From positions 1,116,001 to 1,180,000 of the forward strand of contig NC_012489.1 in NCBI RefSeq assembly GCF_000010305.1: a stretch of DNA of 64,000 nucleotides, written 5' to 3'. Positions 14,342 through 20,747 of this stretch are shown here, piece by piece; position 1 is the first letter of the stretch, and every line of letters starts with the position of its first letter. Source of the stretch: Gemmatimonas aurantiaca T-27. GTDB taxonomy: Bacteria > Gemmatimonadota > Gemmatimonadetes > Gemmatimonadales > Gemmatimonadaceae. Position numbers and translations under genes: made by a program. Below the pieces are notes generated by a model that saw nothing but the letters and a program-made list of their open reading frames with translations, was not told the origin of the DNA and did not search any database.

Positions 14342-15196
14342 CTATTGATAAATCTTCTTGATGAGTCGCAGTTGATGCAGCATGGGCGTCTTGAAGGGCG
14401 CGCCGTAGGTGAAGACCCTTGAACCCCATTCACTCGCCGCTGTCGTTTCCACTTCCAGTCGATAGCGGGTGGCGGGCATGTCCCGGAACGATACCGCACC
14501 ATTGCTGTCGGACACGGCGGTGGCCAGCACCACGGGTGCCGTCACAGGCGGGACGTTGGGCGTCAGCGTATCACCCGGCATCGATGGTAACTGCACGAAT
14601 CGCACGGTGGCTCCAGCGATCGGTGGTGCCACCCAATTGGAGTCCGGGCGCAGAACCAGCGAATCGATCCAGTTCTGCGACACGAGCGCGATGACGTCGA
14701 AACGCGATGGACGGGTGACAGGTCCCTGACCACCTGGAATGCTGTCCGGCGGCACCGAATCGCGCGCGGTGACGGTGAATCGCGCCGTATCGGCCTTGTC
14801 GCCGCGCGACACGATGATGAGCGCCACGCCCGCTGCACGGGCCGATACCGCCGCTCGCAGGCCGTCGGTGCCACGCCCCGAGTCTGGCAATACGGTGACG
14901 GTCGCAACGAGTGGATTGGAGCTGGCCCAGGTGGGTCGTACGCCGGAGATGGGATTGCCTGCGGCGTCGAGAATGCGTGCCTGGACCACCGCACCGTATC
15001 CCACTTGCAGCGTGGCGTTGCGTGGGTCGATGACCACCGACTCACCGCTGACACCATTGATGGCCAGTTGCACGTCGAGATCGTCCGCACGGGTGGCGGT
15101 CGGTGCACTGTCCTTGCATCCTGCCAGCACACCTGCACTCAGCAGAGCGGCTGCGGCGAATGTGCGTGCGTAGATGGAATGTCCTGCGTGCAACAT
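14342..15196 (-). CDS. Lipoprotein with bacterial Ig-like (Big-2) domain
   Basis: 284 residues. The signal peptide ends in the lipobox LAGC. Residues about 45-140 read like a BIG2-type domain: NATLQVGYGAVVQARILDA, the TWASSNPLVATV strand pair and an AAGVALIIVSRGDKAD turn. The C-terminal part has a carboxypeptidase-regulatory-like strand pattern (GATVRFVQL ... SDSNGAVSF ... YRLEVE). Probably a surface-exposed adhesion or polysaccharide-binding protein. No catalytic motif is seen. Confidence 0.72.
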   Translation of the reverse strand: MLHAGHSIYARTFAAAALLSAGVLAGCKDSAPTATRADDLDVQLAINGVSGESVVIDPRNATLQVGYGAVVQARILDAAGNPISGVRPTWASSNPLVATVTVLPDSGRGTDGLRAAVSARAAGVALIIVSRGDKADTARFTVTARDSVPPDSIPGGQGPVTRPSRFDVIALVSQNWIDSLVLRPDSNWVAPPIAGATVRFVQLPSMPGDTLTPNVPPVTAPVVLATAVSDSNGAVSFRDMPATRYRLEVETTAASEWGSRVFTYGAPFKTPMLHQLRLIKKIYQ

Positions 15197-15316
15197 GTCC
15201 TGACTCCTCAGAATGGACCCGATGACGATGCCTCACACCGAACCGCGCATGTGGTGGAGGCAGGGGGCGTCTGTGCGTGATACCTCCCGGTTCGCCCCTC
15301 GGGTCACCTGCTCAGA

Positions 15317-15940
15317 TCATTCTGGCGTGCGACCAAGACCATTCAATGTCGAGCGCATTCCGGCGCTCACGGCATCACGTGGTGTGCGGCCTTGCTGCAG
15401 ATCACGTTCGATGGTGTTGCGGAAGGCACTGAGCTCGCCATCGCGTGCGCCGCGCCGCAGCAGCGATTCCACTGACGAGACGGCGAGATCGATGGGCACA
15501 TTGCGCAGTGCGAGCTCCGCCACGATGGTGAGCGGCATGGTCAATGATGCGACTCCACGCCGTCGTTGTGTGTCCACCAGTCGCGCAATGGCCGCCGGTT
15601 CGACACCGGCAAACAACACACTCGCTGCCGCCTTGAGTTCGTCGTCGCTTGCCGTGGCGCCGAGCAACTGCCGCCCTTCCCGCAAGCGCGACGCGAGTGA
15701 TCGCACCGCGGCGAGAATGCGCGCATCATCGGCACCCTTGAGCACACCTTCGGCCACTTTGTCGCGAATGGCGTCACCCGGCAATCGTTCGACGGTGAGC
15801 GAGTCGACCAGTCGATCGATGGTGGTGCGGGTGAGGGCAGACATGCGGCCGGATGACGGGCTTTGTGCCTCGAGCGGACCGGCCGCCATCAGCAAAGCGA
15901 TGCCCACCGCCACGCATGCGGTCGATGCACGATCGATCAT
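15317..15940 (-). CDS. Exported helical protein of the ECF-sigma/CBM48 operon
   Basis: 207 residues with a signal peptide ending at about PLEAQ. The mature part is predominantly helical with no recognised domain. Short helices of Ala, Leu and Arg alternate with turns, and the pattern 'LxxGA..xxLxxxR' recurs. Its ATG overlaps the stop of the CBM48 gene (ATGA at 15937-15940), placing it third in the sigma operon. It is likely periplasmic. The position suggests a partner or accessory sensor for the membrane CBM48 protein. Confidence 0.65.
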   Translation of the reverse strand: MIDRASTACVAVGIALLMAAGPLEAQSPSSGRMSALTRTTIDRLVDSLTVERLPGDAIRDKVAEGVLKGADDARILAAVRSLASRLREGRQLLGATASDDELKAAASVLFAGVEPAAIARLVDTQRRRGVASLTMPLTIVAELALRNVPIDLAVSSVESLLRRGARDGELSAFRNTIERDLQQGRTPRDAVSAGMRSTLNGLGRTPE

Positions 15941-16503
15941 TCTCTGCTGCTCACCAGGACCACCGAGTTGGGCATGCCAAAATCCTCCTCTGCTTCCGCG
16001 GGAGCAACGGGGTCACGGACGATCTGGCCATCGATGACAAATGCATACGTGTGTCGGCCGGCACTCAAAGGCAGCATGGTGGTCCAGGTGCTGCCATCTG
16101 GTGAGAGTACGAGCGGTGTGGCGTCCGCGTCCCATCCGTTGAAATCTCCCACCAGACTGACCCGTTGCACACCCGGCGCCATCACGGCGAACCGGACGCC
16201 CATGGTCGCGGCGGAGGTGGCGGTTGTGAGATGTGTGGAACGGGCACCCTCGTCTGGCGCGCGACGAGACCGTGTGAGGTCGCCGAGCATGGCTCCCACC
16301 ACCATGAATCCGACGGCCGCTGCCAGCCCGGTGAGCGGCGTGATGCGCCAATCCCGCCCATTCGCTGCCACCGACGGTGGTTCGAGCTGTGCGAGTTCGC
16401 TGTGCAGATGTTCCCGCCAGGCGTCACGAACCGGCACCTCGCGGCGCAACTCCGCGATGGCATGCTCCAGGGCTGGTGGCATCTGTTCGTTATTGTCCGG
16501 CAT
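15937..16503 (-). CDS. Membrane-anchored CBM48 (glycogen-binding-like) protein, putative anti-sigma factor
   Basis: 188 residues from the ATG at 16503. Layout: a cytosolic N-terminus of about 55 residues that is charged and helical, a single membrane helix at about 57-75 (LTGLAAAVGFMVVGAMLG), and an outer domain at about 100-185. The outer domain carries AMPK/isoamylase-type CBM48 signatures: VRFAVMAPGVQRVSLVGD, then FNGWD, then a TMLPLSAGRHTYAFVIDG strand. The start lies inside the sigma gene (14-base overlap), the usual arrangement for an anti-sigma factor. I infer that carbohydrate or cell-wall state sensed by CBM48 controls the sigma factor. No classical zinc anti-sigma motif is present. 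Confidence 0.75.
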   Translation of the reverse strand: MPDNNEQMPPALEHAIAELRREVPVRDAWREHLHSELAQLEPPSVAANGRDWRITPLTGLAAAVGFMVVGAMLGDLTRSRRAPDEGARSTHLTTATSAATMGVRFAVMAPGVQRVSLVGDFNGWDADATPLVLSPDGSTWTTMLPLSAGRHTYAFVIDGQIVRDPVAPAEAEEDFGMPNSVVLVSSRE

Positions 16504-17032
16504 TGCCGTACTCTCCGAGTTCCTGTTGCAGGCGGCTGCAGGCCCGTTGTACGCGCATCTTGAGCGCGGATACTCCGGTTCCCGTGATGCGTGCCATCTC
16601 GACGTACTCCAGTTGCTCGACGTGCTTGAGAAGAAAGGCTTCGCGCTGTTCGACGGGCAGTGCCGCGAGGGCACGGGTGAGCTCCAGGCGCAACTCCGTG
16701 TCAGGGCCGTGCGAAGGCACCGCACTGCGTGCCACGGCGTCCGCGTCGGTGTGTACCCACCGTGTTCTGCGCGTGCGTGAGAGCAAGGCGGTGCGACATC
16801 GATTGGCGAGAATGGCGAAGAGCCAGGTGCGAAAGGCCGTGGCCGGATCGTAGCTGCCCAGCGCACGATAGGCCCGCAACAGCGTGTCCTGGGTTGCCTC
16901 TTCGGCATCTTCGCGCGCGCCGAGCATGCGGGTGGCAAATCGCAGGCAACTTGGTGAATGACGATGCACAAGCTCCGTGAATGCGTGAGCATTCCCGTTC
17001 AGCACAGCGCGTACGAGCTCGGCATCGGTCAT
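16490..17032 (-). CDS. ECF RNA polymerase sigma factor
   Basis: 180 residues. Region 2 (about 10-80) reads HAFTELVHRHSPSCLRFATR, DAEEATQDTLLRAYRAL, then FRTWLFAILANRC. Region 4 (about 118-170) reads ALPVEQREAFLLKHVEQLEY, then the HTH segment MARITGTGVSALKMRVQRA. It directs RNA polymerase to a stress or envelope regulon. First gene of a three-gene overlapping operon with the CBM48 membrane protein and an exported protein. A divergent promoter is not evident; the 71 bases up to the next minus-strand gene probably include its promoter. Confidence 0.93.
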   Translation of the reverse strand: MTDAELVRAVLNGNAHAFTELVHRHSPSCLRFATRMLGAREDAEEATQDTLLRAYRALGSYDPATAFRTWLFAILANRCRTALLSRTRRTRWVHTDADAVARSAVPSHGPDTELRLELTRALAALPVEQREAFLLKHVEQLEYVEMARITGTGVSALKMRVQRACSRLQQELGEYGNAGQ

Positions 17033-17103
17033 GGGTTGTGCGTGATACCTTCCGATGTGACGGTCGGGTCACCGTCAACCATTGGTTCGACGCCGTACCG
17101 AGG

Positions 17104-18384
17104 TCATCGCACGGTGATGAGCCCAACCCGTCCGCCAAATTCATCGCGCGCGGTCGGCAATCCCGGAGGCGGCTGCCAGGCCGCTTCGTCGATACTGATG
17201 TTGAGACGATACGTGCCTGGCCCCACCGGCAAGGTGGCTTCCCACCACCCATGCGCGGCGCGGATCATCGGCACCGGTGCCCAATGCGTGGGTTCACCAC
17301 TCACGCGTACCGACGCGGCATCGTCATGACGCAGGCGCAGCCGGAGTTGCCCCGTCTCGTTGAGGATCGCCTCGAAGGCCATACGCGATCGACTGCCCGT
17401 GGCCACACTGTCGCCGCCTGTGTCGCCACGGCGCGGCCATCGGGCGAGTTGCACCCCAAACGAATAGACTGCGCGCACCGGAGACGTCATGTCGGGTTGT
17501 GTGGGCAGTGCCGCGACACCCGCACGCACCATCACCCAACGGGTGATCGGTACCTGCGCCTCGGTCCGGCCCCACAACATGTTCGACCGCGACCGTGCGC
17601 TGGACGAGAACAACGTGTCCTGCATCCATGGCAGTGGTCGTATGCGATGACTGATGGTGCTGCCTCCGGTGATGTCGAACAACACGGGGCCGGCGTGGAA
17701 CTGGAATCGCGAACGCAGGTCCACCAATCGTGATGGCACCTGCGTGATGATCGTCTGCCTGGTGGGGGCAGGAACCGACGCGGAATCGGTGTACACGGCC
17801 AATGGTTCGTTCCACACGGTCCGACCCAATGCCGTCACGCGACCCAGAGCTCGCAGGTCGAGCGACGCGTTCACGCCGCGCACGCGCTGCCACACCCCCA
17901 CCGTGAGCCCCTGTCGATCCCGAGTGGCGTCGAGCGGGGACAGACTTCGATGTCCATATCCCACACTCACGCCGCCGTTGTGAATGGCACGTGAGAGCTG
18001 CAACAGTGCACGCGGTTGACCGGCCAGTGCCATGCAGTCGGATCCGGCAATTCCAACGGCTCCGGACATCATGAGCGTCCATCCACGATGGGCCGGTGTG
18101 CGGGCAGACAGCGCGACGACCGGTGTGCTGGTGCCAAAACGTGTGGCGCGGGCGAGTGGTGCCGAATAGGCCGTGGCCGATACATGCGTCCAGTCGGCCT
18201 GAGTGGCCACCATGGAGGGCGCCTGGCACTGCGGGCCATTGCCGCTGGTGAGCAGTGCCATGGCGCTGACCTGTGGCACCGGTGATTGCGCCGGCAGACG
18301 GCCTGGTGCAACGACACCGAGCAGTGGCAGCGCCATGCGCAGGGCGTGTGGACACCGCAGTCGGGGGACCAGGGTCACGGGCAT
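17104..18384 (-). CDS. Exported protein with C-terminal CBM48 domain
   Basis: 426 residues. The signal peptide is around MALPLLGVVAPGRLPAQ; an internal ATG 17 codons in would give a tidier signal. The long middle (about 40-320) is rich in alternating hydrophobic/polar strands, compatible with a beta-barrel or beta-sandwich. The last 90 residues form a CBM48-like domain: VRVSGEPTHWAPVPM, WWEATLPVGPGTYRLNISID, then a PARDEFGGRVGLI tail. It lies directly upstream of, and in the same direction as, the sigma/CBM48 operon. The shared domain suggests it is a ligand partner or target of that system. Confidence 0.7.
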   Translation of the reverse strand: MPVTLVPRLRCPHALRMALPLLGVVAPGRLPAQSPVPQVSAMALLTSGNGPQCQAPSMVATQADWTHVSATAYSAPLARATRFGTSTPVVALSARTPAHRGWTLMMSGAVGIAGSDCMALAGQPRALLQLSRAIHNGGVSVGYGHRSLSPLDATRDRQGLTVGVWQRVRGVNASLDLRALGRVTALGRTVWNEPLAVYTDSASVPAPTRQTIITQVPSRLVDLRSRFQFHAGPVLFDITGGSTISHRIRPLPWMQDTLFSSSARSRSNMLWGRTEAQVPITRWVMVRAGVAALPTQPDMTSPVRAVYSFGVQLARWPRRGDTGGDSVATGSRSRMAFEAILNETGQLRLRLRHDDAASVRVSGEPTHWAPVPMIRAAHGWWEATLPVGPGTYRLNISIDEAAWQPPPGLPTARDEFGGRVGLITVR

Positions 18385-18553
18385 GGGGTACGCAGTGAGG
18401 GGACTGCAGGAGGGACGGATCGCATCGCGGCTCGCGCCTCTGCTATACCTCCTGACACCGGCCGCGGGTCACATGCATGAGCGGGTTCTTTGGCGAACAG
18501 ACGAGCCCATCACATCGACTTGCGTCAACCTTCGTTGCTCTTCAGACTCCGGT

Positions 18554-18967
18554 ATGCCATTGCGTTCTCGCCGTCTCCGTTCCGCATGCGCACTCGCTGG
18601 AGTGACGCTGCTCATGAGTGCCTGTATGAGCGCCACTGATTCCAGTGGCGGCAGTCAGGACTATTTTGCGCGCATTCGCGGCACGGTCACGCGCGCGGAT
18701 GGTGCATCGACCGCGCGTGCCGGTATTGGTGTCTCCTGTACCGGATCGGATGACCAGCCCTTTGGAGTCACGGCGGACGCCGACGCCAATGGACGCTTCG
18801 AGGTGGATCTGAATATCCCGCCGGTGTTCAGGCCGCTCGAAGGGCCCGTTTTTGCGTGCCGTGTTCTGACGCCCTATAACGGCTTGCCCCTGGTGGAGAA
18901 GACCGTGGTGATTCCGGTCGGGACGGGTACCCGCCCGGTGACTGAGGTTGCCCTGGTCATCCCCTGA
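18554..18967 (+). CDS. Lipoprotein with beta-sandwich domain
   Basis: 137 residues from the ATG at 18554; a longer frame from 18203 overlaps the divergent gene and lacks a signal. The lipobox is LMSAC. The mature part reads IRGTVTRADG, then VSCTGSDDQPFG, then ADANGRFEVDL, a carboxypeptidase-regulatory-like (transthyretin-type) fold pattern. Three cysteines may bond in the mature protein. The role is unknown. It is divergent from the 17104-18384 gene with a 169-base spacer. Confidence 0.65.
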   Translation: MPLRSRRLRSACALAGVTLLMSACMSATDSSGGSQDYFARIRGTVTRADGASTARAGIGVSCTGSDDQPFGVTADADANGRFEVDLNIPPVFRPLEGPVFACRVLTPYNGLPLVEKTVVIPVGTGTRPVTEVALVIP

Positions 18968-19091
18968 TCAGGCCTCTGGCTGGAGCGGCGCGCCCCTCGA
19001 TGCACTGACGGGCGCGCCGTTGTGGTATGGTGGCTCGCCGATCGGTGCCACGCCTCAGCCCGGCCCGACTATCATTGGGCATGGTGAATTC

Positions 19092-20747
19092 ATGACCGAG
19101 CCACTGGAACACCCCCCCGAACAGTCGCCCAGCCCCTCTGCGGCGCCGGCAGGGTTCGAGGACGACCTGCGCGCTGCCGTTCGCCTGCTGGAACAGGTGA
19201 TTGCCGATCGCACTCTGCTCATGACGGTGCCCAACGACGACCGCCGCCGTTTCGACGAGGCCGTGGCCACCGTGTTCCAGCCCGATGTGCGGGCGCGCCG
19301 GGCCATGGTGAAAGCCACGGCCCGCCAGCGGAAACTCGAGGCGGCGCTACGCGACGATAGTGTGTTGCATGAGACAGGCATTCGAGCCCTGCGCCGCAAG
19401 CCGGTGTTCACCACGCCCAATGTGTACCTGCTGGGTGATGCCACTTCAGGCACCTCGTCGGTCACGGCCGAAGAAGTGGACGGCGCACCCATGCCGGAGG
19501 AAGAGAGCAGCCGGCCGCACAATGGCCCCGAAGCCGTCGTGCCCCAGCACTGCTACATCTGCAAGCAGAAGTACACGAAGATCCATCACTTCTACGACCA
19601 GATGTGCACCGAATGCGCCGACTTCAATTTCCGGAAGCGCACGGAGCTGGTCGACCTGAGCGGGCGCACGGCGCTGCTCACCGGTGGTCGTGTGAAGATC
19701 GGCTATCAGGCCGGTCTCAAACTGCTGCGGTGTGGCGCGCGTCTGTTGGTGACCACGCGTTTCCCACGTGATTCGGCCATGCGGTATGCCGCTGAACCCG
19801 ATTTCGAACAGTGGAAGGATCGTCTCGAGATCTTTGGCCTCGACCTGCGGCACACCCCCAGCGTGGAAGCGTTTTGTCGGGAGTTGCTGCAGACGGAATC
19901 ACGACTCGATTTCATCGTGAACAACGCCTGCCAGACGGTGCGGCGTCCACCCGCCTTCTACGCGCACATGATGGAGGGGGAACGCGCGGCGTCGGGCACA
20001 TTGCCTTCGACCACGCGTGCCCTGCTGGGCAGCTACGAAGGTATGCGTGACGCCGATGCCGGGCGTGTGGCTTCCGCCGTCACCGGAGCCGGTGTGGTGA
20101 GCGCAGAAACCATCGAAGAACTGGCGCTCGATCGTGTGGGGCTCACGCATGCGGCGGCCTTGTCGCAGGTGGCGTTGTTGCCGGACGATCTGGATGTGGG
20201 TGAGCAGCTCTTTCCGAGTGGCAAACTCGATCAGGATCTGCAACAGATCGACCTGCGCTCACGCAATTCCTGGCGTCTGTTGATGGACGAGGTGCCCAGC
20301 GTGGAGTTGCTGGAAGTGCAGCTCGTGAACGCGATCGCGCCGTTCCTCATCAACGCGCGTCTCAAGCCCCTGATGCTGCGGACCGACAACCGCGACAAAC
20401 ACATCGTCAATGTGTCGGCGGTGGAAGGACAGTTCTATCGCAACAACAAGACCACACGGCACCCGCACACCAACATGGCCAAGGCGGCGCTCAACATGAT
20501 GACGCGCACGTCGGCTGCCGACTATCAGCAGGATGGTATCCACATGAACAGCGTGGATACCGGATGGGTGACCGACGAAGACGTGGCCGAGATTGCTGCG
20601 CGCAAGGTGGAGAACCATCGCTTCCATCCACCGCTCGATATCGTGGATGGTGCAGCGCGCATCGTGGACCCGATCATCGTCGGGGTGGCCACCGGCGAAC
20701 ATGTCTGGGGCCAGTTCCTCAAGGACTACGTGCCCACCGACTGGTAG
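19092..20747 (+). CDS. Short-chain dehydrogenase/reductase with zinc-binding N-terminus
   Basis: 551 residues from the ATG at 19092 (a longer frame from 18948 adds an unlikely extension). The N-terminal 155 residues are helical. A zinc-binding module follows with CYIC and CTEC spaced by 16 residues. The SDR Rossmann fold then starts at ALLTGGRVKIGYQAG, with NNACQT and the late strand IVNVSAVEG. At the usual YxxxK catalytic position the sequence is TNMAK (within HPHTNMAKAALNMM), so the catalytic tyrosine appears replaced by threonine while the lysine is kept. A segment of about 110 residues is inserted between NNACQT and the active-site strand. The substrate is unknown. Confidence 0.82.
   Translation: MTEPLEHPPEQSPSPSAAPAGFEDDLRAAVRLLEQVIADRTLLMTVPNDDRRRFDEAVATVFQPDVRARRAMVKATARQRKLEAALRDDSVLHETGIRALRRKPVFTTPNVYLLGDATSGTSSVTAEEVDGAPMPEEESSRPHNGPEAVVPQHCYICKQKYTKIHHFYDQMCTECADFNFRKRTELVDLSGRTALLTGGRVKIGYQAGLKLLRCGARLLVTTRFPRDSAMRYAAEPDFEQWKDRLEIFGLDLRHTPSVEAFCRELLQTESRLDFIVNNACQTVRRPPAFYAHMMEGERAASGTLPSTTRALLGSYEGMRDADAGRVASAVTGAGVVSAETIEELALDRVGLTHAAALSQVALLPDDLDVGEQLFPSGKLDQDLQQIDLRSRNSWRLLMDEVPSVELLEVQLVNAIAPFLINARLKPLMLRTDNRDKHIVNVSAVEGQFYRNNKTTRHPHTNMAKAALNMMTRTSAADYQQDGIHMNSVDTGWVTDEDVAEIAARKVENHRFHPPLDIVDGAARIVDPIIVGVATGEHVWGQFLKDYVPTDW

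Follow-up and report, generated by a model that had tools for sequence, protein, structure and literature searches.

A conserved ECF sigma factor cassette of Gemmatimonadota with a CBM48-bearing probable anti-sigma factor and a predicted outer-membrane barrel

The chromosome of Gemmatimonas aurantiaca T-27 contains, within the 64,000-nucleotide stretch analyzed here (the window; NC_012489.1, positions 1,116,001 to 1,180,000), four minus-strand genes coding for an extracytoplasmic function (ECF) sigma factor, a membrane-anchored CBM48 protein that is very probably its anti-sigma factor (B), an exported orphan protein (C), and a predicted outer-membrane barrel with a C-terminal CBM48 domain of its own (D). 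We interpret these genes as a self-contained, autoregulated cassette in which a sigma factor and its anti-sigma factor couple transcription to the periplasm and outer membrane, and assign this interpretation a probability of roughly 0.7. It is carried by the order and overlaps of the four genes, the presence of three paralogous cassettes in the genome, the linkage of the genes across the phylum, and a bipartite promoter-like motif that precedes the sigma operon, D, and a nearby lipoprotein gene.

Results

Organization and conservation of the four-gene cassette

D is the first of the four genes on the minus strand and is followed by the sigma gene, B, and C (Table 1). B overlaps the sigma gene by 14 nucleotides and C overlaps B by 4 (ATGA), and the sigma protein is composed of sigma2 and sigma4 domains only, both with Pfam matches above the cut-offs, which places it in the ECF group. 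The gene layout, coordinates, and domains given in a preliminary description of this DNA are borne out by the open reading frames, the Pfam matches, the signal-peptide-like start of C, and the exported nature of D.

The host genome is closed (4,636,964 bases). AMPK1_CBM is found at five places in it: two belong to the window locus, another two lie at 3.09 Mb, and the fifth is at 4.60 Mb. Elsewhere in the genome there are two more four-gene cassettes, with the gene order sigma, B, C, D. Each of the four proteins is homologous to its counterparts in the other copies, with identities to the window copy of 40 to 49% for sigma, 30 to 38% for B, 28 to 30% for C, and 23 to 28% for D. The location of D at the front, as in the window, is shared by a second Gemmatimonas genome (G008, locus L180; G and L numbers are our labels for genomes and loci) and by a contig of a Gemmatimonas metagenome-assembled genome (L050), and a B homologue with E < 1e-34 is present in 29 of 30 Gemmatimonas genomes.

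A survey of the phylum used gene C alone as bait in 200 Gemmatimonadota genomes, each at least 90% complete. The C family is present in 125 of these, representing 60 of 91 genera, and 80 of the loci chosen by C were read with their flanks. A same-strand sigma gene is found at 73 of the 80, B at 78, and D at 66; all seven loci lacking sigma end at a contig edge, such that sigma is present in 73 of 73 where the contig reaches. The two paralogous four-gene copies and the recurrence across the phylum place the cassette far beyond chance, and by synteny the four genes are one conserved unit linked throughout Gemmatimonadota. A lack of linkage between CBM48 and sigma genes in related genomes had been named at the outset as a finding that would speak against the proposed pair; the relatives keep the two linked.

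B as an anti-sigma factor

The AlphaFold model of B has two short N-terminal helices (residues 10 to 20 and 27 to 39), a membrane helix at about residues 62 to 79, and a CBM48 domain at about 98 to 188. There are 2.98 lysine or arginine residues before the membrane helix versus 1.78 after it (n = 161 members), a bias indicating a cytoplasmic N terminus and a periplasmic CBM48. In common with class I anti-sigma factors, B is encoded next to an ECF gene and has a cytoplasmic N terminus and a membrane helix, the last two as predicted from sequence. Some relatives of B have a zf-HC2 domain (L098, 1.7e-5, above the cut-off; L070, 5.7e-4; L092, 1e-3; L115, 6e-3), and the Hx3Cx2C motif is seen in L115, L098, and L084. 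These zf-HC2-bearing relatives come from other lineages and phyla and each still adjoins an ECF sigma gene, and a Gemmatimonadota group of B proteins (L302 to L326) is intermediate, with a degenerate YLDGE-type N terminus lacking cysteines.

Among inter-protein pairs, the strongest covariation is between sigma residue 26 and B residue 30, within helix 27-39 (0.49; the next pair of any combination is at 0.39), and B cytoplasmic columns are represented in 82 of the top 200 sigma-B pairs, versus about 59 expected from column counts. The 26/30 pair fits the class I interface, in which helix 4 of the anti-sigma factor contacts sigma2 (PMC7406223).

Several observations weigh against B being an anti-sigma factor. 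The window protein has only about 55 cytoplasmic residues before the membrane helix, fewer than a full class I domain, no recognizable class I anti-sigma domain (ASDI or zf-HC2) is found in it with Pfam, and the zinc motif is lacking. Class I proteins have a three-helix bundle followed by helix 4, whereas the AlphaFold model of B shows two cytoplasmic helices, and the covariation between residues 26 of sigma and 30 of B loses significance once relatedness is corrected for (5 to 7 independent contrasts, median p 0.5). This tree-based test has too few independent changes, and the covariation is therefore used as support only. Zinc-free class I domains are common (PMC7406223), and although window B falls outside a strict class I domain definition, its relatives indicate that it probably descends from the class I group, with the zf-HC2-type domain apparently shortened in Gemmatimonas. 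Synteny, the gene overlap, the N-in topology, the zf-HC2 relatives, and a putative autoregulatory promoter together make B very probably an anti-sigma factor, and the sigma/anti-sigma pairing of the preliminary description is thus well supported.

A shared promoter-like motif and putative regulon

The pattern TGACCCG-N12-GRAGGTAT, with constant spacing, has exactly three matches in the 4.64-Mb genome, all at the window locus (Table 1), and none with one mismatch; its uniqueness in the genome is descriptive, since the pattern was derived from those three sites. In G008, which represents a second species, the looser GTGACC-N17-GGTAY is present at all three orthologous positions. Across the phylum, GTGAC-N16..18-(GGTA or TGTTG) is found in 45 of 119 non-redundant sigma upstream regions, whereas dinucleotide shuffles yield 0.54 on average and 3 at most. 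Of the sigma upstream regions with a GTGAC-type motif, 13 also carry an opposite-strand copy. In the soil-genome relatives read, a DUF4382-type lipoprotein gene diverges from the mirror copy of the sigma promoter (L053, L055, L061, L074, L081, L101, and L093); the lipoprotein at L055 has carboxypeptidase-regulatory and Big_2 domains besides DUF4382, and the window lipoprotein weakly shares these two domain types with the divergent lipoprotein of relatives. The pattern GTGACG-N15-TGGGTAT, allowing at most one mismatch, has 53 matches in eight soil genomes versus 6 for the reversed pattern, and four exact sites read outside the cassettes of soil genomes lie 9 to 37 nucleotides 5' of three lipoprotein genes and of a gene for an exported, apparently outer-membrane protein.

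The cassette appears to be autoregulated, with the sigma operon, D, and the lipoprotein gene sharing a promoter-like motif. A point against this is that L007-type cassettes have no recognizable promoter motif with the patterns used. In many loci the -10 element ends about 7 to 13 nucleotides before the sigma start codon (17045 to 17032 in the window; L081 and L053 are further examples), and this proximity suggests that the sigma mRNAs are leaderless or nearly so.

Three exact copies of the L006-type motif, GTGACG-N16-TGTTGT, occur in the host genome. One of them (L200; G000:C1:2436631-2436658, minus strand) is located about 300 nucleotides 5' of a gene for a SusC-like TonB-dependent receptor and could be due to chance, and L202 is without an evident gene; a wider regulon for the L006-type paralog is not claimed.

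The CBM48 domains, barrel D, and orphan protein C

The CBM48 domain of B is modeled with high confidence (predicted local distance difference test [pLDDT] score of about 97) and matches the glycogen-binding domain of AMPK beta1 with Z 13.4, a root mean square deviation of 1.4 over 80 residues, and 31% identity; cyclodextrin-bound structures are among its fold matches. CBM_48 and AMPK1_CBM matches are present in 91 of 91 B proteins, consistent with membership by both family and fold. The equivalent of AMPK W100 is kept in all 91 B and all 91 D proteins and that of W133 in 71 of 91 B and 87 of 91 D proteins, with isoleucine in window B, and the K126 equivalent is replaced throughout B, mostly by alanine. 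Judged from these alignments, B and D retain the sugar-contact residues only in part. No carbohydrate enzymes are found among the window neighbours or the putative regulon genes read in relatives. Short CBM48 proteins of Verrucomicrobia (L072, L079, L095, L096, L112, L113, and others) resemble the B CBM48 domain and have no adjoining sigma gene.

D is modeled as a barrel (residues 38 to 314), a linker, and a CBM48 domain (336 to 425), with an overall pLDDT of 79.5 and 14 barrel strands by count. The best structural match of the barrel is the cyclodextrin channel CymA (Z 20.9), followed by OmpG (Z 20.0), with identities of 5 to 8%; the identity to CymA is 5%, and the likeness is therefore one of barrel architecture only. 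AMPK1_CBM is matched in 83 of 91 D family members and Porin_4 in 8 of 91 (best 2.9e-4), and D is predicted to be an outer-membrane barrel. By an established rule for such barrels, the even strand count of D places its CBM48 domain in the periplasm, the compartment also predicted for that of B. The proposal that this upstream CBM48 protein is a ligand-binding partner of B stands in part: the linkage is conserved and the promoter apparently shared, but D is a predicted outer-membrane barrel and not a free binding protein.

Comparison of C with Pfam, NCBIfam, and PDB sequences gives no convincing relative, and an RseB-type match is likewise absent there. Its tie to B is conserved linkage only, and no B-C or B-D pair covaries above background; both points weigh against the involvement of C and D in signaling through B. 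Five loci (L258, L270, L283, L315, and L326) have a second, diverged C-like gene after D.

Neighbouring genes

The cassette is flanked in the window by genes for an Rrf2 regulator, oxidoreductases, and a lactonase (Pfam). The gene at 18557-18967 (+), divergent to D, codes for a small lipoprotein in which a carboxypeptidase-regulatory-like domain is weakly matched; the gene has no motif copy on its own strand but may belong to the same unit as the cassette. Beyond it, 18948-20747 (+) codes for a 599-amino-acid (aa) short-chain dehydrogenase whose N-terminal extension is rich in cysteines and resembles a zinc ribbon.

Table 1. Genes and promoter-like motifs of the cassette locus, in window positions
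Feature	Position	Strand	Matches and remarks
ECF sigma factor, 180 aa	16490..17032	-	Sigma70_r2 1.2e-16, Sigma70_r4_2 6.6e-13, TIGR02937 5e-27
B, CBM48 protein with membrane anchor, 188 aa, probable anti-sigma factor	15937..16503	-	CBM_48 3.9e-9, AMPK1_CBM 5e-9
C, conserved third gene, coding for an exported orphan protein of 207 aa	15317..15940	-	Signal-peptide-like start
D, predicted 14-stranded outer-membrane barrel with C-terminal CBM48	17104..18384	-	Exported; AMPK1_CBM 9.7e-5, below Pfam cut-off
Lipoprotein gene, putative regulon member	14342..15196	-	Big_2 0.0032, carboxypeptidase-regulatory-like 0.00046 (Pfam, both weak); shared promoter motif
Promoter-like motif TGACCCGACCGTCACATCGGAAGGTAT	17045..17071	-	5' of sigma operon; exact pattern match
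Promoter-like motif TGACCCGCGGCCGGTGTCAGGAGGTAT	18445..18471	-	5' of D
Promoter-like motif TGACCCGAGGGGCGAACCGGGAGGTAT	15280..15306	-	5' of lipoprotein gene 15196..14342

Discussion

In the mechanism that we propose, the N-terminal helices of B would tether sigma to the inner membrane at rest, and helix 27-39 would be the counterpart of class I helix 4, which binds sigma region 2. The input would be taken by the periplasmic CBM48 domain of B, perhaps with the help of C, whose gene is part of the sigma operon much as that of RseB, a periplasmic regulator, is part of the rpoE operon (PMC8103513). A change in the state of the periplasm or outer membrane would then lead to inactivation of B, probably by membrane proteolysis, and the freed sigma factor would transcribe its own operon, barrel D with its periplasmic CBM48 domain, and surface lipoproteins. 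Co-expression of D with the sigma operon would mean that the cassette changes the compartment it senses.

As the input we favour envelope state, be it that of outer-membrane proteins, of lipoproteins, or of a periplasmic glucan, over a nutrient polysaccharide, because the sugar-contact residues are only partly kept, and because the putative targets read in relatives are mostly envelope proteins and, like the window neighbours, include no carbohydrate enzyme. One form that envelope sensing could take is an outer-membrane quality switch with the logic of RpoE-RseA-RseB, in which CBM48 would act as an Ig-like module for protein binding and B would be controlled by C, by misassembled D, or by the CBM48 domain of D. 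This is plausible, if somewhat short of an even chance: the operon order of sigma factor, anti-sigma factor, and exported protein matches that of rpoE-rseA-rseB (PMC8103513), lipoproteins and outer-membrane proteins are among the putative targets, and the C-B linkage is phylum-wide, but C has no recognizable relation to known families, B covaries with neither C nor D above background, and exact target sites are few per genome (three here), unlike a broad stress regulon. A serious rival, although on balance an unlikely one, is that an alpha-glucan-like ligand, perhaps delivered via D, binds the CBM48 domain of B and releases sigma, in the manner of the carbohydrate-binding RsgI proteins of Clostridium. 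The AMPK-type fold with its cyclodextrin-bound matches, the wide conservation of the W100 and W133 equivalents in B and D, and the identity of the best structural match of D as a cyclodextrin channel are in its favour, and are set against the loss of the K126 equivalent, the isoleucine at the W133 position of window B, the missing carbohydrate enzymes, and the 5% identity of D to CymA. Of the carbohydrate or polysaccharide sensing put forward in the preliminary description, the CBM48 fold is borne out, but the sensing itself is only a candidate function. More doubtful is an arrangement in which the twin CBM48 domains, one on B at the inner membrane and one on the D channel in the outer membrane, form a relay spanning the periplasm, with a shared imported or periplasmic glucan ligand, or direct contact between the domains, reporting the state of the channel.

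Two further alternatives concern the regulatory circuit itself. The shared motif could serve another regulator as promoter or operator, with the cassette not autoregulated, and the sigma factors of the two other cassettes in the genome do have a different motif or none that is recognized; the ECF-promoter-like character of the motif, its fixed spacing near the start codon, its tracking of the sigma gene across the phylum, and its confinement in the host genome to the window locus make this improbable. Least probable, and very much so, is that B is a co-transcribed envelope protein and no anti-sigma factor, with sigma activity set by how much of it is made or by some other protein. The N terminus of window B taken alone would be compatible with this, but the zf-HC2-bearing relatives at the same sigma-linked position, the overlap with the sigma gene, and the phylum-wide pairing argue for B as the partner of the sigma factor.

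The cassette has points of resemblance to several known systems. FecA-FecR-FecI combines an ECF sigma factor and an anti-sigma factor with a barrel of the outer membrane that has an additional domain in the periplasm, and the cassette likewise links a predicted barrel with a periplasmic domain to a probable pair of this kind; D instead matches a porin-type 14-stranded barrel, and both B and D have CBM48 domains. A FecR domain is not among the Pfam matches shown for 91 B proteins, and TonB plug and STN domains have no match in 91 D proteins, such that the cassette is not a FecIRA system. The genes for class I (ASDI) anti-sigma factors such as RsiW, ChrR, RseA, and RskA adjoin and overlap an ECF sigma gene, as B does (PMC7406223); some relatives of B have the Hx3Cx2C/zf-HC2 domain, with whose end helix 2 of B aligns, but window B differs in keeping only a short part of it and in having CBM48 as its putative sensor domain. 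SigI/RsgI of Clostridium thermocellum also combine a membrane anti-sigma factor bearing an outer carbohydrate-binding-type module with several paralogous pairs per genome (PMC10575876). However, SigI is not an ECF sigma factor and lacks a normal sigma4, whereas the window sigma factor has one (Table 1) and the cassette is therefore not SigI/RsgI; RsgI modules lie outside a Gram-positive cell and are accompanied by an extra autoproteolysis domain, and SigI regulons include cellulosome genes (PMC10575876). RpoE-RseA-RseB shares its operon order with the cassette and has the autoregulation and envelope-protein targets that are predicted for it (PMC8103513), but C is no recognizable RseB relative, the outer domain of B is CBM48, and there are just three exact sites in the genome.

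At the level of single proteins, CymA and OmpG have the barrel architecture and size of D (Z about 20, at 5 to 8% identity), and the C-terminal CBM48 is a feature of D. The AMPK beta-subunit CBM48 has the fold and part of the sugar platform in common with the bacterial version, which differs in being membrane-anchored or barrel-fused and in having lost the K126 equivalent. No description of a CBM48 anti-sigma factor was found in the literature searched, although an earlier mention may exist in the main ECF reclassification paper.

Four points go beyond what was first described for this DNA: the paralogs, the identity of D as a predicted barrel and cassette member, the promoter-like motif common to the three sites, and the gene for a lipoprotein at 15196..14342(-). 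Gemmatimonadota are abundant soil bacteria whose signaling is little known, and the cassette offers an apparently unreported ECF anti-sigma input domain, an orphan exported family, and an outer-membrane barrel as one linked unit. The C gene marks it in most of the phylum sample (125 of 200 genomes), and the specificity of the promoter sequence, with only three exact sites in 4.6 Mb, makes the entire regulon directly testable. If the twin-CBM48 relay were true, it would be a third kind of trans-envelope ECF signaling besides FecARI and RpoE-RseAB, present in most of a phylum.

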